Source: Candidatus Actinomarinales bacterium (GTDB lineage: Bacteria; Actinomycetota; Acidimicrobiia; Actinomarinales; Actinomarinaceae). Taken from it: a stretch of DNA of 35,469 nt. Every line of letters begins with the position of its first letter. The first letter of the stretch is position 1. The notes beneath the pieces are model-generated. The model did not search any database, was not told the origin of the DNA, and saw nothing but the letters and a program-made list of their open reading frames with translations. Location: contig SGYT01000007.1 in assembly GCA_004214055.1 (NCBI GenBank), forward strand, positions 1-35,469, written 5' to 3'. This document shows positions 930-23,637 of the stretch, one piece after another. Both the position numbers and the translations under genes were made by a program.

Positions 930-2435
930 TTATTCAGTTATTTCCAGAAGTTCAAAATCTCCCCAGTTAACTGTCAGGTGTTTTGCTGGTATTAGCTCAT
1001 TTGGGCGGCCAACTGGTAAATTTTTTGGATAAGTATTTAAATTTTGATTATTTAATTTTAAATCTTCAATAATAATGGATATTGTTTCTGATAAGTCATC
1101 TAGTGTGTCTACAGATTGAGTTTCAGTTGGTTCGAACATTAATGCTTCTTCAACAATTAAAGGGAAGTATATAGTAGGAGAATGAAAGCCTCTATCCAGA
1201 AGTGCTTTACCTACATCATATGCTTTAATTTTATGAGATTTTTTTAAATCTTTAACAGTAGCTACAAATTCATGCATGCAAGGTTTAGCGTATGCAAGTG
1301 GTAATGATTTGGAAATAACAGAAGCTAAATATCTTGCATTTAATACAGCGTAAGATCCTAAATCATCAAGGCCTTCTTTACCAAGTAGTTTCATGTAAGC
1401 AAGTGCACGTAAAGCAACTAAAAAGTTGCCATGATACCCATGCATTCGACCTATAGAGTATTTAGGTTGGTACCAAGAGAATTTATCATCACTCTTCTCA
1501 ACTATTGGTCCAGGTAAATATTCCCTTAAGAAATCCTTTACAGCAACAGGGCCAGATCCTGGTCCACCACCTCCATGAGGAGTAGCAAAAGTTTTATGCA
1601 AATTAGAATGTACTATATCAAATCCCATATCTCCTGGTCTGCAGACTCCAACAATTGCGTTTAAGTTTGCTCCATCATAATAAAGAAGTCCGTCGACACT
1701 ATGTATTATCTTTGATATCTCTAAAATTTCTTCCTCAAATAATCCTCCAGTATTTGGATTAGTTAACATTAAACCAGCCGTTTCATCATTTACTAATGTT
1801 TTCAATTCTTTAACATCGACTAAACCATTAATATCAGTGGATACTTCAACTACATTAAATCCTGCCATTTTTGCAGAAGCAGGATTGGTGCCATGTGCTG
1901 AATCAGGAACAATTATATTTTTCTTATTATTTAAATTTTTTCTTTGTAAATATTCTTTTATTATTAATAGTCCTGTTAATTCTCCAGAGGCTCCAGCTGG
2001 AGGTTGGAAACTAGCATAATCCATTCCAGTAATTTCAATTAAATATTTTTCTAGTATATAAAGAATTTCAAGTATGCCTTGACTTAGGTGAGATGGAGTA
2101 GATGGGTGAATATTTGAAAATCCTGGTAATGAGGCTACCCAGTCAGCAAATCTTGGATTGTATTTCATTGTGCATGATCCTAGAGGATAAAAACCTAAAT
2201 CTACAGCAAAGTTCCTATGTGCTAATCTTGAAAAATGCATTACTAAATCATGTTCTGATACTTCTGGAAGAGGTGCTTTTTCTGTTTTAATAGCTTCATG
2301 CTCAATTACTTCTTCGGGTACATCTAATTTAGGATAATTAAATGCTCTCCTACCAGGCTTTGATAATTCTTTAATAGTAGGTTCTGGCATACCTCCAACT
2401 AATGGTAATGAACTTGCGTTACCTCCACTACTCAT
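930..2435 (-). CDS. gcvPB: Glycine dehydrogenase (decarboxylating) subunit 2
   Basis: This is the C-terminal half of the split P-protein of the glycine cleavage system (501 aa, usual size for the two-subunit form). With subunit 1 it decarboxylates glycine using PLP and passes the aminomethyl group to lipoyl-GcvH in the cytoplasm. The PLP-binding lysine is K281 in HSNLHKTFATPHGGGGPGSG, followed by the glycine-rich loop typical of the family; YPLGSCTMKYNPR near residue 85 and PPAGASGE near 145 are also diagnostic. Its ATG overlaps the gcvPA stop by 8 nt, so translation is probably coupled. The split GcvPA/GcvPB form contrasts with the single long GcvP of most Proteobacteria. Confidence 0.96.
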   Translation of the reverse strand: MSSGGNASSLPLVGGMPEPTIKELSKPGRRAFNYPKLDVPEEVIEHEAIKTEKAPLPEVSEHDLVMHFSRLAHRNFAVDLGFYPLGSCTMKYNPRFADWVASLPGFSNIHPSTPSHLSQGILEILYILEKYLIEITGMDYASFQPPAGASGELTGLLIIKEYLQRKNLNNKKNIIVPDSAHGTNPASAKMAGFNVVEVSTDINGLVDVKELKTLVNDETAGLMLTNPNTGGLFEEEILEISKIIHSVDGLLYYDGANLNAIVGVCRPGDMGFDIVHSNLHKTFATPHGGGGPGSGPVAVKDFLREYLPGPIVEKSDDKFSWYQPKYSIGRMHGYHGNFLVALRALAYMKLLGKEGLDDLGSYAVLNARYLASVISKSLPLAYAKPCMHEFVATVKDLKKSHKIKAYDVGKALLDRGFHSPTIYFPLIVEEALMFEPTETQSVDTLDDLSETISIIIEDLKLNNQNLNTYPKNLPVGRPNELIPAKHLTVNWGDFELLEITE

Positions 2436-3735
2436 CTAAAACCTTCTTTAATGTATTTACATATCTATCAATTTCATCTTTTGTTCTTTTCTCTGTTACA
2501 GCAATTAATATTTGATTATTACTATATTTTATTCCAGCTAAATAACCATCATCAGCCATTTTGTCTATAACAATGTCTACATCCTTTTCTGTTTTTATTA
2601 AAAATTCTCGTATTGATGTATCTTTATTCAATACTTCTATGTTTTCTTCAATAAGTTTATTCTTCATATAATTGGCTTTCTGCATGGCTTGGAAACCCAT
2701 TGTGTATATACCTTCTGGACCAAGCCAACATAAATGTATTGCAGATCCAATTGCATTTAATGTTTGATTTGTACATATGTTAGAAGATGCTTTTTCTCTT
2801 CTAATGTCTTGTTCTCTAGCTCTTAATGTCATTACGTATGTTTTTATATTGTTGCTGTCTCGTGATTCGCCAATAATTCTACCCGGTACAAGTCTTGCAA
2901 ATTCTTTTTTTGTAGCAAACCAACCTACTGTTGGTCCGCCAAATGATAATGGCGTTCCAATTGACTGACCTTCTGCAACAACGATGTCAAATCCCATATT
3001 CCCAGGAGTTTTTAAAATACCCAGAAGTGTAGGATCTACATAACAAATTGTAACTATACCTTTACTTTTAGCTTTAGTAACAAGCTCAGTTAGATCCTCA
3101 GCAGTTCCTTCAAAGTGAGGATAGCTTACAACAAAAGCTGCATCTGTATCTTTAAATTTATAATCTTTTGGAAATTTATAATCAATTAAATCGATATATT
3201 TAATTTTAAATTTTTCATTATCAATTAATGTGTTTACAACTTCTTTAGAGTTTGGATGAAAACCGCTAGAAATTACAACTTCATCTCTTTTTGTTTTATT
3301 TATAGCTACTGATATTGCTTCAGCTATTGATGTTGCGCCGTCATACAGTGAAGCATTTGCTAGTTCCATTTCTGTTAAATCACAAACTAATGATTGAAAT
3401 TCAAATAATGCTTGTAGTACTCCTTGGGATATTTCTGCTTGATAGGGAGTGTATGATGTCATAAACTCAGGTCTCATTGTTAAAGTTTTTACTGTGTGTG
3501 GTAGATATACGTCATAATGACCACCTCCAGCAAAACAAATTAAATTTTCTTTATTTTTTTTTGAAATGGATTCGAAATATTCAATAGCTTCTAACTCAGA
3601 AATTGAATCAGGTAGATTAACACCGTTTTCCAATATTAATTCTTTTGGTAGATGACTAAAAAGTTCAGATAAAGAATTAATAGATAATTCATTAAAAACT
3701 TTTTTTAAATCTATATCAGAATGTGGAACAAACAT
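2428..3735 (-). CDS. gcvPA: Glycine dehydrogenase (decarboxylating) subunit 1
   Basis: N-terminal half of the split P-protein (435 aa). The family signature is present: FAGGGHYDVYLPHTV near residue 70, TSYTPYQAEISQGVLQALFE near 95, and DVVVAEGQS-like and LSFGGPTVGWFA segments near 255-275. It pairs with the PLP-carrying GcvPB to form the active glycine decarboxylase. The ATG shares one base with the gcvT stop (TAATG), and its own stop overlaps gcvPB, giving the order gcvH-gcvT-gcvPA-gcvPB with no spacers. The whole glycine cleavage machinery except the shared L-protein (lipoamide dehydrogenase) is therefore encoded here in one operon. Confidence 0.96.
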   Translation of the reverse strand: MFVPHSDIDLKKVFNELSINSLSELFSHLPKELILENGVNLPDSISELEAIEYFESISKKNKENLICFAGGGHYDVYLPHTVKTLTMRPEFMTSYTPYQAEISQGVLQALFEFQSLVCDLTEMELANASLYDGATSIAEAISVAINKTKRDEVVISSGFHPNSKEVVNTLIDNEKFKIKYIDLIDYKFPKDYKFKDTDAAFVVSYPHFEGTAEDLTELVTKAKSKGIVTICYVDPTLLGILKTPGNMGFDIVVAEGQSIGTPLSFGGPTVGWFATKKEFARLVPGRIIGESRDSNNIKTYVMTLRAREQDIRREKASSNICTNQTLNAIGSAIHLCWLGPEGIYTMGFQAMQKANYMKNKLIEENIEVLNKDTSIREFLIKTEKDVDIVIDKMADDGYLAGIKYSNNQILIAVTEKRTKDEIDRYVNTLKKVLDE

Positions 3736-4757
3736 TAGCTTAAAAACCTTTTATTAATTATATTTCCTTCTATAAAGTTACCACGAATATCAAACTCTAT
3801 TAAATCAGATTCTGGGTTACTGTCAAACAATGCATAGCCTATTGATTTTTCTAAGATTGGTGAATAGTTTCCAGATGTTACTACCCCATTAATATTATTA
3901 TTTTTAACTTTTGTTCCTGTTCTAGCAATTTTTTTAGAATTAATAATAAACTTTTTTAAAATTTTATGTTTTCCATTATTTAGTTCATCTTCAATTTTGT
4001 CTTTACCTAAATAATCTTCTTTATTGGTAAGAACCCATTTCAAATTAGCTTCAATTGGTGAAATTTCTTCTGATAATTCAAAACCATACAATGGAAGTGA
4101 CGCTTCTAGTCTTAATGTATCACGTGATCCAAGCCCACATGGATTAATATTTTTATCATTAATATATTTCATAACTTCATTAAGTTTTGAATTATTAAAC
4201 ATAATTTCAAAACCATCTTCACCTGTGTATCCTGTTCTTGCATATATGTAATTACCATTATCAATAGCTGAAAAACGAGCTGGCGAATCTATTAAATTAT
4301 TCATTAATTTTTCTGAATCTGGACCCTGTATGGCAATTAAACATGTGTCGAATGTCTGGTCGTCGAATTTTATACCATTAATATTGAGATGCTTAGAAAT
4401 CTTTTCTCTATTGCTAGCGTTACAAATCAATACTAATTTTTCTTCAAATTTCCAAAATATTACATCGTCTAATGATTTTCCATTTTTATTAGTAAATATT
4501 GTGTATAAAGCTTTTGAGTTATCTAAATTTATAATATCAGAACAAATTAGCTTACTTATATTATCTATTTCATCGATATTAATTATTAATCTACCCATAT
4601 GAGATACATCAAAAAAACCGCAACTATTTCTAACATAATTATGCTCTTTCAAAGTTCCATCATATGAAAAAGGCATTTCCCATCCGGCAAAATCTATTAA
4701 CTTTGATTTTTGTTCTAAATGATATTTATATAGCTGAGTAGTAAGAAGCTTGTCCAT
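3735..4757 (-). CDS. gcvT: Aminomethyltransferase (glycine cleavage T-protein)
   Basis: T-protein releases ammonia from aminomethyl-lipoyl-GcvH and forms 5,10-methylene-tetrahydrofolate. The 340-aa protein has the family landmarks: DFAGWEMPFSYDG near residues 22-34, FFDVSHMGR near 48-56, ARTGYTGEDGFEI near 175 and LGSRDTLRLEASLPLYGFEL near 210-230. It is slightly shorter than many GcvT proteins (about 360-370 aa), in line with the compact genes around it. The ATG overlaps the gcvH stop by one base (TAATG), and its stop overlaps the gcvPA start in the same way. Free-standing YgfZ-like GcvT relatives lack this full context, so the assignment is firm. Confidence 0.95.
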   Translation of the reverse strand: MDKLLTTQLYKYHLEQKSKLIDFAGWEMPFSYDGTLKEHNYVRNSCGFFDVSHMGRLIINIDEIDNISKLICSDIINLDNSKALYTIFTNKNGKSLDDVIFWKFEEKLVLICNASNREKISKHLNINGIKFDDQTFDTCLIAIQGPDSEKLMNNLIDSPARFSAIDNGNYIYARTGYTGEDGFEIMFNNSKLNEVMKYINDKNINPCGLGSRDTLRLEASLPLYGFELSEEISPIEANLKWVLTNKEDYLGKDKIEDELNNGKHKILKKFIINSKKIARTGTKVKNNNINGVVTSGNYSPILEKSIGYALFDSNPESDLIEFDIRGNFIEGNIINKRFLS

Positions 4758-5119
4758 TAAGAGATAAACGACTCATATTCTTGATAGCTCATTCCAATGT
4801 TTTCTAATTCCTTAATTGTCCCTTTTATGATCCATCCATCACCACATGGATCGCTGTTAATAAGTTCTGGTTCAGAGTCTAATTTATTATTGACTTCAGA
4901 TATCGTTATATCCATGGGTGCATAAACTTCTGCGACTGTTTTTGTTGCTTCAACTTCTACCATACCTTCTCCTTTTGAAAAGGTTTCATCAACTGATGGT
5001 AATGTTACAAATACTATGTCACCTAATTCACTTTGAGCAAAGTCAGAGATCCCAACAGTGATTTCATTATCATTAATTGAGAACCATTCATGAGTTTCTA
5101 GATACTTTTTCTCTGTCAC
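4757..5119 (-). CDS. gcvH: Glycine cleavage system H protein
   Basis: Lipoyl carrier protein of 120 aa, close to the usual 125-130 aa. The start MTEKKYLETHEWF and the region EVEATKTVAEVYAP are characteristic; K60 in EATKT is the predicted lipoylation site. The typical ending WIIKGTIKE...MSYQEYESFI is also present. It shuttles intermediates between P-, T- and L-proteins. It is the first gcv gene in the transcript direction. Only 9 nt separate it from the upstream SDR gene, which leaves no room for a glycine riboswitch, so any glycine control must act further upstream. Confidence 0.95.
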   Translation of the reverse strand: MTEKKYLETHEWFSINDNEITVGISDFAQSELGDIVFVTLPSVDETFSKGEGMVEVEATKTVAEVYAPMDITISEVNNKLDSEPELINSDPCGDGWIIKGTIKELENIGMSYQEYESFIS

Positions 5120-12960: not shown

Positions 12961-13632
12961 TTACAATTCTAATATTGATAAATCTAATGTATCACCATCA
13001 GAAAATGTTTGATGATCTTTTTTATAAATTATATGAATATTATTTTTTCCAATTATTTTAATTTCTGATTCATTCATAACAAAATATGTATCTTTTTCTA
13101 AGCAAATTAGTTTATATTTTCCTTTGTTAAGTATCTTAATCGTGTTTGTTATCCAGGAATAATAACTTTCTCCATAATGTGGAATTATTATAGAATTTTT
13201 AATAAAATTTAAACCTTTACCTTTAATCATTCTTTCACCCATAATCATTGAACCTGCACTGCAGCCAGCTAATATTCCTTCTTTTTTAATTCTTAGCAAT
13301 TCATTTATAAATTTATTATTATTTATTGAATTAAATAAATGCTGTGGATTACCTCCCGAGAAATAAACAAAATTAGATTTAGAAATCTCATACAATACGT
13401 CATTATTGATAATCTCTTCTTTATTTCTTGCTTTTATATGTTTATGGCGGACATTTAATGATTTAAAATGTGTATTCGCAAGATTTTCCCAATATTCCTG
13501 CTTTTCTTCACTCTCTTTTCCTGCAGCTGTTGAAAAAGTTAATACATATGGATTGTTAATATAACTTAATAAAACATTATCAACGTATTTAATAGTAGGT
13601 AAAAACTCGCCAGATCCAGTAATTGCAATCAT
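12961..13632 (-). CDS. Peptidase S51-family protein (peptidase E / cyanophycinase-like)
   Basis: A 223-aa serine hydrolase of family S51. The nucleophile is Ser125 in LAGCSAGSMIMGE, preceded by the family motif VYFSGGNPQHL (residues 89-99); H152 in IIPHYGESYYSW is the likely catalytic His. S51 members cleave Asp-X dipeptides (PepE) or cyanophycin-type peptides; which applies here is undetermined. I start at the ATG at 13632 because the in-frame extension to 13755 is a translation of two tRNA genes. The start is 7 nt after the tRNA-Cys 3' end with no room for a Shine-Dalgarno site, so the mRNA is probably released by tRNA processing. Confidence 0.85.
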   Translation of the reverse strand: MIAITGSGEFLPTIKYVDNVLLSYINNPYVLTFSTAAGKESEEKQEYWENLANTHFKSLNVRHKHIKARNKEEIINNDVLYEISKSNFVYFSGGNPQHLFNSINNNKFINELLRIKKEGILAGCSAGSMIMGERMIKGKGLNFIKNSIIIPHYGESYYSWITNTIKILNKGKYKLICLEKDTYFVMNESEIKIIGKNNIHIIYKKDHQTFSDGDTLDLSILEL

Positions 13633-13639
13633 TTCTTTG

Positions 13640-13710
13640 AGGCGACGACGAGAATCGAACTCGTGTAAACGGTTTTGCAGACCGCTGCGTAGCCACTCCG
13701 CCACGTCGCC
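13640..13710 (-). tRNA. tRNA-Cys (anticodon GCA)
   Basis: Minus-strand cloverleaf with acceptor GGCGACG/CGTCGCC, anticodon arm CGGTC-TGCAAAA-CCG around GCA and T-arm CGAG-TTCGATT-CTCG. The discriminator is U73 at 13640, which is the Cys identity base. CCA is not encoded. tRNA-Gly lies 4 nt upstream, and the S51 start codon 7 nt downstream. Confidence 0.95.
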
Positions 13711-13714
13711 AGTG

Positions 13715-13786
13715 AGCGGGTGAAGGGAATCGAACCCTCGTCTCCACCTTGGCAAGGTGGTGTGATAGCCATTATACTACACCCGC
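13715..13786 (-). tRNA. tRNA-Gly (anticodon GCC)
   Basis: Minus-strand cloverleaf with acceptor GCGGGTG/CACCCGC, anticodon arm CCACC-TTGCCAA-GGTGG and T-arm GAGGG-TTCGATT-CCCTT. The discriminator U at 13715 fits bacterial tRNA-Gly. CCA is not encoded. It is probably co-transcribed with tRNA-Cys and the genes that follow. Confidence 0.95.
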
Positions 13787-20718: not shown

Positions 20719-20747
20719 ATTTTACTAGAACATTTGTTCTAATACAA
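20719..20747 (-). promoter_or_regulatory. Predicted recA promoter
   Basis: On the minus strand TTGTAT (-35-like, 20742-20747) is separated by exactly 17 nt from TAAAAT (-10-like, 20719-20724). The 17-nt spacer is filled by the LexA palindrome, so a bound repressor would cover the core promoter. The -35 match to consensus is only moderate. Confidence 0.5.
20726..20741 (-). promoter_or_regulatory. LexA (SOS) box in front of recA
   Basis: TAGAACAAATGTTCTA (minus strand) has perfect GAAC/GTTC arms around a 4-nt centre, the form known for Gram-positive and actinobacterial LexA. It lies 64 nt upstream of the recA ATG and overlaps the last codons and stop of cinA (20739-20741). It matches the box before lexA at 15 of 16 positions. 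Confidence 0.9.
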
Positions 20748-21944
20748 GGATTTAATGAATTTAATAAGTTCCCATATAGATTTATTTGAAGCTCTTTCAA
20801 TTATTTCAGTTCTATTTCCATTCAACTTATGTTCTGTTACTTGCGTTTTTTCGATGTTAGATATACAGATAAATATTTTTCCAATTGGATATTGACTACT
20901 TGTTATTGGGCCTGCCTCCCCCAATATTGAAATTGATATATTAGAACCATATTTTTTTAAAGAAGCAAAACATAACTCAATACTAAGTTCTTCCCAATCT
21001 TCAGTATCTAAATCAACATTTAACAATTTTGATTTGGCTAATGATGAATAAACTATATCTCCAGAAAGGTAATTATTACTTATCCCTGGATTTTGAGTTA
21101 ATTTAGAAGCAATTAACCCTCCAGTGATGCTTTCTACAGTAGTAATTGTTAAATTATTAGTTTTTAGTAAATCAAATAATATTGAAGAAATATGAATATT
21201 TTCATAAGCTAAGATATCTTCGTTAAAACATTCTTTAATATCTAATAAGAATTTTTCATGATCTTGTTTTGATATTGAATTTTTATCATACCTTAATTTA
21301 ATGATTCCTTTACTTGCTAAATATGCAATATCTATATCTTTAGGTTTAAATTTATTTATTTCACTCGCTAAATGTGATTCTGCTTGATTGTAAAATAATA
21401 TAAATCTGTAATCTCTTTTGTTACCTTTGTATTTAACTTCTAAGAATGGTACTAACTCGTCATTAACTATAGGAATAAATTCATTTGGTGGGCCAGGTAG
21501 TATGAATACATTCTTATTATCAATTTCTATATGTAGACCTGGTGCTGTTCCTTTTGTATTTGTTAATTTTTTAGCTCCATATGGTACTAATGCTTGTTTG
21601 ATATTTATATCAGGCATTTTTAAACCCCTTGAGCTCCATCTCTCTTCCATATAAGATACATGTTTGCTATCAAGGATTAATTTCAAATTTAAATATTTTG
21701 AAATTACTTCTTTTGTAATATCATCTTCAGTAGGACCTAATCCTCCGCATATAATTACTAAATCATTTTTGTTTTCTAAATATTTAAACCCACCTATTAT
21801 CTCTTCTTCATTGTCTGAAACTGTTAATTCTGTATTTAAGTTATATCCTGAATTGTATAATATGTTTCCCAAACTAGATAAGTTTGTATTGAGTGTGTCT
21901 CCTAATAATATTTCAGTTCCTACAGTTAATAATCCAATTTTCAT
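20739..21944 (-). CDS. cinA: CinA-family protein (competence/damage-inducible; NMN amidohydrolase-like)
   Basis: A 401-aa protein with the two-domain CinA layout. The N-terminal MoCF/COG1058 domain starts MKIGLLTVGTEILLGDTLNTN and carries the VIICGGLGPTEDD motif. The C-terminal CinA domain has TTVESITGGLIASKLTQNPG near residue 270, where many homologues have ESCTGG. CinA proteins act in pyridine-nucleotide salvage (ADP-ribose pyrophosphatase and NMN deamidase activities), and in some bacteria are expressed with recA. It is the first gene of the minus-strand cinA-recA-miaB-miaA-dapF run. Its last codons contain the recA LexA box. The deamidase-domain residues differ slightly from consensus. 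Confidence 0.93.
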   Translation of the reverse strand: MKIGLLTVGTEILLGDTLNTNLSSLGNILYNSGYNLNTELTVSDNEEEIIGGFKYLENKNDLVIICGGLGPTEDDITKEVISKYLNLKLILDSKHVSYMEERWSSRGLKMPDINIKQALVPYGAKKLTNTKGTAPGLHIEIDNKNVFILPGPPNEFIPIVNDELVPFLEVKYKGNKRDYRFILFYNQAESHLASEINKFKPKDIDIAYLASKGIIKLRYDKNSISKQDHEKFLLDIKECFNEDILAYENIHISSILFDLLKTNNLTITTVESITGGLIASKLTQNPGISNNYLSGDIVYSSLAKSKLLNVDLDTEDWEELSIELCFASLKKYGSNISISILGEAGPITSSQYPIGKIFICISNIEKTQVTEHKLNGNRTEIIERASNKSIWELIKFIKSLY

Positions 21945-21991: not shown

Positions 21992-22435
21992 ATGAAAAAA
22001 TTAATATTACTTTTTATTCTTTTTACTTTTTGCTCTTCACCTATAAATAGTGATTTTTCTGATGAGTTTATTACTGAAATTACATATCAAAACTTAGATG
22101 GTGAATATGTAAATGAAGATCTTACAAACAAAAAGACAATTATTGTTTTTTGGGCAGATTATTGAGGTAGCTGTAGACAGGAGTTGCCTGTCTTAGAAGC
22201 AAATTTAAATAACTTTAATGACGAATACGATGTCATAGCTTTAGCTCATAGTGATATAAATTCAACTAATTCTTGGGTTCGAAACAATCTTAAAAATATT
22301 TTAACTATTGGTATTTCAACACAAGAAATTAGAGATAAATATAAAGTTATAGGTCAACCAATAACAATTATCTTAAATGAAAAAGGTGAAATTATTTTTA
22401 GAGAGTATGGCTATATACCTGTAACTGATTTCTAA
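21992..22435 (+). CDS. Thioredoxin/TlpA-like selenoprotein (UGA = Sec58)
   Basis: From an ATG at 21992 one frame runs 147 codons to a TAA, interrupted only by TGA at 22163-22165 (codon 58). The upstream part has a hydrophobic N-terminus (MKKLILLFILFTFCSSP, a signal or weak lipoprotein peptide) and KTIIVFWADY; the part after the TGA continues GSCRQELPVLEANL. Thioredoxin/TlpA proteins have W-A-x-x-C-G-x-C here, so TGA replaces the first redox Cys, giving U-G-S-C. The cis-Pro segment KVIGQPITIILNEKGEI is also intact. A hairpin fitting a bacterial SECIS follows. A TTG at 22184 would yield only a headless fragment. It is probably an extracytoplasmic thiol oxidoreductase. The alternative is a nonsense-mutated pseudogene, which I consider unlikely. 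Confidence 0.82.
22163..22193 (+). promoter_or_regulatory. Putative bacterial SECIS element (UGA plus hairpin)
   Basis: The TGA is followed by 9 nt and then a perfect 7-bp stem: AGACAGG (22175-22181) pairs with CCTGTCT (22187-22193) across a 5-nt loop AGTTG. The UGA-to-loop distance is 16 nt and the second loop base is G followed by U. Both features agree with the known bacterial SECIS rules for SelB binding (loop 16-37 nt from UGA, G among the first two loop bases). The stem is built from codons CAG, GAG, TTG and GTC, which are minority choices in this AT-rich genome. Confidence 0.78.
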
Positions 22436-22506: not shown

Positions 22507-23637
22507 GTGAAAAAATCATTTCTTATTCTACTTTCTTTAACTATGGTGCTTACCGCTTGTGGTGGAGCAACAGAAGAAGTTGTAGAAGAACCTGCAGTTG
22601 TTGAAGAAGTCGAAACACTAGATAAGCCAGCTACTACTACTGCGCCTGTTCTAGATAAAATTATTTTTGGCTTTGTTCCAAGTGCAGAACAAACAGACCT
22701 TCAAGACAATATACAACCTTTAATGAAAGTTTTATCAGAAGGTTTGGGTATTGAAGTAGAAGGATTTGTTACAAGCGATTATTCTGGTTTGTTAGTTGCT
22801 ATGGGTTCAGGTCAAGCTGATGTTGGTGCCTTTAATACTTTAGGTTACGTAAATGCACTAAATGCTTTTCCTACTCGGTTAGAAGCAATAGCTAAAATTG
22901 TTAGATATGGATCAGGTTCGTATCACGGAACATTCTGGACTACAGATGCAAGTGTTTGTAAGTCCACACCTGTGATAGGAGCATTTGAAAACATTGATGG
23001 TGTTCCTACTCTTGTTGAAGGTTCAGCAACAATGCCACCTGATGTCGCAGCTTTACAAGTAGGTTGGGGCTTTGGTGATGATGGTATGATCCCAGAAGTT
23101 AGAACAATTGATGGAGCTGAAGTAACTGTTAGTCCTGGACTAGCATGTGAAGCAGATTTATCTGTAATGATTGGTGAAGAAGTATTATTTGTTGAAGAGG
23201 GTTCAACATCCGGATATCTCTATCCTTCATTGCAATTAAAAAATGCTGGTATTAGCTACACAAGCGACATAGTTCAAAGATATGCAGGATCTCATGATGG
23301 AGTAATTTCCGGACTGTACAATGGTGACGCTAAATTTGGTGTTACTTATGATGATGCAAGAAGAACTATGAGAAAAACAAACCCTGATGTTGGAGAAAAA
23401 GTTATAGCTTTTGCAATTACTGAAGAAATACCAAATGATGTAGTTGCTGTAAGATCTGACTTACCTGCCGATATTAAGGATAAAATATATACAATTCTAA
23501 GCGACTATATTGCAACTGATGAAGGTTTAGCTGTTATGGATGAAATCTATGGATGGACAGGACTAGTTCCTGCAGTTAACTCTGAATTTGATGTTGTTAA
23601 ACAAGCAGCTCAAGAATTTGGTTTGTACGACGAGTAA
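22507..23637 (+). CDS. phnD: Phosphate/phosphite/phosphonate ABC transporter substrate-binding lipoprotein
   Basis: A 376-aa PhnD-family binding protein. The signal peptide ends in the lipobox LTAC with Cys18, so it is anchored outside the membrane; an acidic Glu/Val-rich linker follows. The core fold shows IIFGFVPSAEQTDLQ, the SGQADVGAFNTLGYVNAL segment and DGVISGLYNGDAKFGVTYDDARR, as in phosphonate- and phosphite-binding relatives. The start is GTG at 22507 after the strong site GCGGAGG; the overlapping ATG runs straight into TGA. The following phnC and two phnE genes make a complete importer. No C-P lyase or phosphite dehydrogenase gene is visible, so the ligand cannot be fixed. Confidence 0.92.
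   Translation: MKKSFLILLSLTMVLTACGGATEEVVEEPAVVEEVETLDKPATTTAPVLDKIIFGFVPSAEQTDLQDNIQPLMKVLSEGLGIEVEGFVTSDYSGLLVAMGSGQADVGAFNTLGYVNALNAFPTRLEAIAKIVRYGSGSYHGTFWTTDASVCKSTPVIGAFENIDGVPTLVEGSATMPPDVAALQVGWGFGDDGMIPEVRTIDGAEVTVSPGLACEADLSVMIGEEVLFVEEGSTSGYLYPSLQLKNAGISYTSDIVQRYAGSHDGVISGLYNGDAKFGVTYDDARRTMRKTNPDVGEKVIAFAITEEIPNDVVAVRSDLPADIKDKIYTILSDYIATDEGLAVMDEIYGWTGLVPAVNSEFDVVKQAAQEFGLYDE

Follow-up and report, generated by a model that had tools for sequence, protein, structure and literature searches.

Can a reading frame that is broken by one TGA, placed exactly at the first redox cysteine of a thioredoxin-like protein, be an intact gene? The question is raised by positions 21992-22435 of the window, by which we mean the whole stretch of 35,469 nucleotides analysed here. 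Translation of this frame gives 147 residues followed by TAA, and the TGA at 22163-22165, codon 58, is the sole internal stop, as a preliminary description of this DNA had reported; the flanks VFWADY and GSCRQELP, which that description had placed around the lost cysteine, were likewise recovered, and four homologues in the class carry TGC at this very codon. The translated product reads MKKLILLFILFTFCSS...IIVFWADY-U-GSCRQELPVL...VIGQPITIIL... From the sequence, we judge it almost certain that this apparently stop-broken gene specifies a membrane-tethered redox protein containing selenium. The features on which the argument draws are the following.

20739-21944, minus strand: cinA, the divergent upstream neighbour (Pfam CinA and MoCF_biosynth; adjoins in 29/29 genus loci).
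21992-22435, plus strand: predicted selenoprotein gene, 147 residues with Sec58, a ResA/TlpA-type thioredoxin-fold lipoprotein (conservation, Pfam, AlphaFold model).
22031-22033, plus strand: Cys14, at the end of a short hydrophobic N-terminal segment and probably the lipobox cysteine (conserved at over 90% within the genus and without exception in the class alignment).
22163-22165, plus strand: in-frame TGA at codon 58, predicted to be read as Sec and to open the UxxC redox motif (29/29 genus orthologues and 51 further class genomes).
22172-22174, plus strand: Cys61, the resolving cysteine of the UxxC motif (column invariant in the genus and class alignments).
22175-22193, plus strand: hairpin of the bacterial SECIS type, with its arms at 22175-22181 and 22187-22193 and the loop AGUUG at 22182-22186 (pairing, covariation, altered in Cys forms).
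22358-22360, plus strand: Pro123 of the GQP motif, which we take, from knowledge of the thioredoxin fold, to be the equivalent of the thioredoxin cis-proline (Q122-P123 invariant in the genus and class alignments).
22507-23637, plus strand: phnD, a phosphonate-type ABC binding lipoprotein, the downstream neighbour (Pfam PF12974; downstream in 26/29 genus loci).

The assembly to which the window belongs, as contig 35, is incomplete (747 kb, 78% complete), and the window has a GC content of 29.5%; relatives have genomes of about 1 Mb, the family consists of this one genus, and the surrounding genomes of the class measure 2-5 Mb. Read mechanically, the locus does look broken: the ORF caller split the gene, placing its start at TTG 22184 and losing the active site, just as had been foreseen for automatic annotation. 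This would suit a pseudogene whose TGA is a nonsense mutation or a sequencing error, a reading that we regard as very improbable in view of the relatives. Among 35 genomes of the genus, the window's own included, 29 hold an orthologue, and all 29 carry a single TGA, always at this codon, with no further internal stop and no frameshift; identity among them is about 49-67%, and the differences downstream of the TGA fall mostly on third codon positions. The same TGA recurs in homologues of 51 other genomes of the class, and codon 58 is occupied by in-frame TGA or by Cys in the homologues aligned, a comparison that the preliminary description had proposed. None of the 35 genus genomes yielded a Cys version of the gene; Cys homologues found in the genus at about 31% identity were set aside as other TlpA paralogues (WASWCxxC). 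The six genus genomes in which no orthologue was seen are 60-82% complete, as are all those in a wider count (7 of 42), so that absence at such completeness is not interpretable.

A second reading would keep the gene and alter the code, with TGA standing for tryptophan or another standard residue. Nothing beyond the read-through frame itself speaks for this, and we give it even less credence than the pseudogene: TGA terminates 3 of the 34 long ORFs of the window, TGG is freely used there (116 codons), and the residue replaced is a catalytic Cys, encoded by TGC in related genomes. Moreover, the selenoprotein frame is alone in the window: a single-TGA read-through of 90 codons or more lying largely outside the other genes occurs nowhere else there. 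A single TGA conserved in 29/29 genus orthologues, in the sole read-through frame, is therefore more than chance, and the pseudogene, sequencing-error, alternative-code and chance readings all fail.

If the TGA is decoded as selenocysteine, the genome should hold the corresponding machinery, and selA, selB, selC and selD are all present in the window's own genome despite its incomplete assembly. The tRNA-Sec gene (C30:5952-6042) scores 77.7 bits against a cut-off of 47 and has the anticodon TCA; selA (C23:11502-12695) scores 363 bits, above its cut-off, and is directly adjoined by selB. SelB reaches 203 bits against the strict TIGR00475 cut-off of 242, though TIGR00475 is by far its best family, and its C-terminal winged helix (PF09107) lies above the Pfam cut-off. 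The selD gene (C37:3411-4328; 371 bits) itself contains an in-frame TGA, in the motif GSG-U-ACK. Of 26 genus genomes sampled, 25 gave a tRNA-Sec, 23 a selA and 25 a selD, and each of these 25 selD genes contains a TGA. The preliminary description had named these genes as the ones to look for, and had held that their lack, or random stops in relatives, would point to a pseudogene; neither was encountered. When a second TGA gene was sought among the AhpC-TSA proteins of the window's own genome, the three matches contained no stops. It is conceivable, albeit doubtful, that this lineage, among the most reduced of free-living bacteria, keeps selA, selB, selC and selD essentially for SelD and this lipoprotein alone; if true, one extracytoplasmic redox reaction would explain a selenium requirement of an abundant ocean group.

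Decoding by SelB would also require a hairpin in the message. Bacterial SECIS elements present their apical loop approximately 16-37 nt from the UGA, with a G within the first two loop positions. At the TGA gene, the 7-bp stem AGACAGG/CCTGTCT, its loop 16 nt from the TGA and the G at loop position 2 are all as first described, and AG opens the loop in 69 of 70 Sec copies. RNAfold assigned -13.9 kcal/mol to positions 22160-22205 (z = -2.42 against shuffles), which is modest for a single sequence; comparison across relatives is more telling. The inner six stem pairs are intact in 23/23 distinct sequences of the genus, and among 63 distinct Sec sequences each of the six inner positions is paired in 61 to 63. 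Counting from the T of TGA, positions 15 and 27 pair as C-G or as G-C, and no intermediate was seen; since each is a first codon position, the switch swaps two amino acids jointly, Q/R with V versus E with L. On the tree this switch is one event, and the pairs 13-29 and 16-26 changed state at least seven and six times, respectively, nearly always while still paired. The covariation score was reached by 0 of 500 shuffles, and sliding the arms abolished the covariation, both controls favouring this register.

The loop carries a second signature. Of the 36 class Sec genes outside the genus, 32 write its leucine as TTG or TTA, codons found at 44 of their 405 other leucine positions; the four Cys genes have CTG, CTC, CTC and ATG at the corresponding place. 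The stem is decayed in three of these four genes, with 2-3 of 7 pairs left, and the fourth (L104) keeps 5 of 7. Compensatory changes and an unusual UUR loop leucine thus mark the hairpin.

The wider class provides a natural comparison between Sec and Cys forms. In a sample of 247 genomes, genus included, TGA-bearing homologues occur in 51 genomes outside the genus, where the TGA was read out at 41 loci in two batches (36 + 5), motif and hairpin being borne out in the loci so examined; a readout of 40 class loci gave 36 TGA and 4 TGC at the motif WAEW(U/C)xxC. The TGA form co-occurs with selA in 50 of the 51 genomes (Fisher p = 4e-10, uncorrected for relatedness), the remaining one, G233, having the TGA form and no selA match; these counts were taken over related sequences, and the p-values are descriptive. 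Conversely, selA gave no match in three of the four Cys-form genomes (G154, G191 and G056), G200 retaining it. With no selA match in three of four Cys-version genomes and the decay of three of four hairpins, the family constitutes a clean natural experiment. The Cys forms require two changes on a quick tree with many open forks and are nested inside the Sec forms, and the direction of replacement was therefore likelier from Sec to Cys. At L104 in G200 the Cys form stands beside a retained selA and 5/7 stem pairs; this possibly represents a recent Sec-to-Cys change, or else other selenoproteins maintain the Sec system of G200. A different combination was observed in G035 (L055), where selD has Cys (GAGCACK) and the ResA-like lipoprotein has retained its TGA; a switch in one of these selenoproteins thus need not be accompanied by a switch in the other. 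In several genomes of the class genus g75, two to three TGA-bearing paralogues lie in tandem within about 2.5 kb, as at L136 (G236:C62:61416-63644) and also on G197:C39, G166:C33 and G139:C28. Among 296 genomes sampled from the phylum, all matches at E <= 1e-24 came from members of the same class, and the family thus looks class-restricted at this sensitivity; a whole-protein scan of genome contigs returned distant homologues only, mostly from Bacteroidota.

What kind of protein is this? The Pfam families AhpC-TSA, Redoxin, Thioredoxin_8 and Thioredoxin all match over cut-off, the first two best, and many Sec enzymes are peroxidases, so that a genuine selenoprotein acting as a peroxiredoxin-like selenoperoxidase rather than as a disulfide reductase has to be weighed. 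The AlphaFold model (pLDDT 82, pTM 0.75) leads elsewhere: its best solved fold is ResA (TM 0.70, E 5e-10, 121-125 columns), followed by StoA, DsbE/CcmG and the pneumococcal Etrx lipoproteins, with peroxiredoxins at lower ranks. The redox motif WAxxUxxC with its Q-P cis-proline site, invariant in the alignment, resembles that of ResA, TlpA and StoA, and the TxxC/TxxU motif of peroxiredoxins is absent. We accordingly consider a selenoperoxidase unlikely. Judged by the modelled thioredoxin fold, the WAxx(C/U)xxC motif and the predicted cis-Pro, the product is a TlpA/ResA-type thioredoxin-fold protein in the broad sense, and the TlpA-like label given to it at the outset holds. The accompanying UGSC label fares less well: the residue after U-G is S in the window gene and I, V, T, L or A in its relatives, so that the motif is UxxC and not a conserved UGSC, and NF041046 ('UGSC-containing protein') had no match at E <= 0.001. 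The letters UGSC thus link NF041046 with this one sequence, S not being conserved in the orthologues. NF041054 (WAxxUGC_long) describes a selenoprotein that likewise has Sec in a ResA-like WAxx motif, with UGC in place of the UxxC spacing seen here, and scored 27.2 bits against a cut-off of 300. The NCBIfam ResA model (PRK03147) gave 43.7 bits against 170 and the StoA family 54.1 against 210, and no NCBIfam model matched the family above its cut-off. Scores so far under the ResA and StoA cut-offs mean that the protein may well work like them, yet is not to be so named.

ResA and StoA, thiol-disulfide oxidoreductases of Bacillus, belong to an extracytoplasmic class of proteins fed by CcdA. They share the fold (TM of about 0.7) and the placement of the redox pair with the selenoprotein, and differ in having Cys at the first redox position. 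Etrx1 and Etrx2 of Streptococcus pneumoniae, which are CcdA-linked, are also lipid-anchored TlpA-type thioredoxins with Cys instead of Sec (PDB 4hqs, 2yp6/4hqz). A lipid anchor through Cys14 is likely for the selenoprotein as well, because this residue is conserved class-wide after a hydrophobic stretch; the signals in the class alignment read LTAAAC, LIAAAC and LVFAAC, and the window protein has Phe at -1. A CcdA-type gene is present in the window's own genome (G000:C34:1701-2495, L150). It adjoins an endonuclease III-like ORF, and no thioredoxin-like neighbour was seen within 6 kb.

The presence of CcdA and of ResA as the nearest solved fold might suggest that the selenoprotein serves cytochrome c maturation, as ResA does. 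The genus differs from the Bacillus system in this respect, however: ResB was not found in 12/12 genus genomes searched, with controls such as Bacillus subtilis matching, and the NCBIfam ResA score falls well below its cut-off. A role in cytochrome c maturation is therefore improbable. We are instead highly confident in a selenoprotein with SelB-decoded Sec58 that is probably a lipid-anchored reductase of ResA/TlpA type, with CcdA as its most likely donor. In such a scheme, SelB carrying Sec-tRNA(Sec) would bind the hairpin 16 nt downstream of the UGA, and the ribosome would read codon 58 as selenocysteine, a decoding event to which the Sec genes and the hairpin point. The product would then be exported, anchored to lipid via Cys14 as its signal suggests, and fold as a ResA/TlpA-type thioredoxin, in which the Sec58-x-x-Cys61 pair may act as a fast extracytoplasmic reductase of disulfides (or of sulfenyl/selenenyl groups). 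Electrons would most plausibly come from the CcdA-type membrane protein of the same genome. As a substrate, apocytochrome c is less likely than surface or other extracytoplasmic proteins or than an enzyme of oxidant repair, because the genus genomes searched yielded no ResB.

The gene order cinA - selenoprotein gene - phnD holds in 26/29 genus loci, with recA past cinA where the locus extends that far. The location beside a phn transporter, pointed out in the preliminary description, is thus a regular feature, and what did not survive is the partnership that it might imply: in 3/29 loci phnD is absent from the 1.5 kb downstream and the selenoprotein gene is kept. A functional tie was set aside for this reason, partnership between the phn neighbour and the selenoprotein being improbable.

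Sec-containing thioredoxin-like UxxC proteins are already known from ocean metagenomes. According to the available portion of the GOS survey, they are among the commonest marine selenoproteins, with 321 assigned to Trx-like 1 (PMC2398784), and the accessible part of a 2026 review lists a 'thiol-disulfide isomerase-like' UxxC type (PMC13188914). These ocean proteins (thiol-disulfide isomerase-like, cd02966; Trx-like 1, COG0526) have the thioredoxin fold, the UxxC motif, a bacterial SECIS and a marine origin in common with ours, and in those portions of the two sources they are known as metagenome reads, without this host (PMC2398784, PMC13188914). Genomes of Ca. Actinomarina measure about 1.1 Mb with 32% GC (PMC7771536); the stem 'selen' is absent from the 2020 Ca. 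Actinomarinales genome paper, and no paper joining Actinomarina with a selenoprotein was found in the literature searched. The class-restricted family and the use of selenium in this group, the latter suspected from the start to be undescribed, were not found described in that literature. The results show that a streamlined group of actinobacteria uses selenium, and genome size, GC content, the make-up of the class and the phosphonate transporter suggest that this group is probably Ca. Actinomarina; they also offer a genomic place for what may be one abundant, anonymous thioredoxin-like marine selenoprotein. Standard gene callers break such genes at the TGA, and the protein is therefore probably missing or truncated in databases.

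Two minor observations concern other parts of the window. A TTG-started mechanical ORF at 12961-13755 overlaps two same-strand tRNA-like matches (13641-13710 and 13716-13786), so its true start probably lies downstream of them. On the minus strand, 930-5119 holds glycine cleavage genes, the P protein apparently being encoded in two ORFs (501 + 435 aa).
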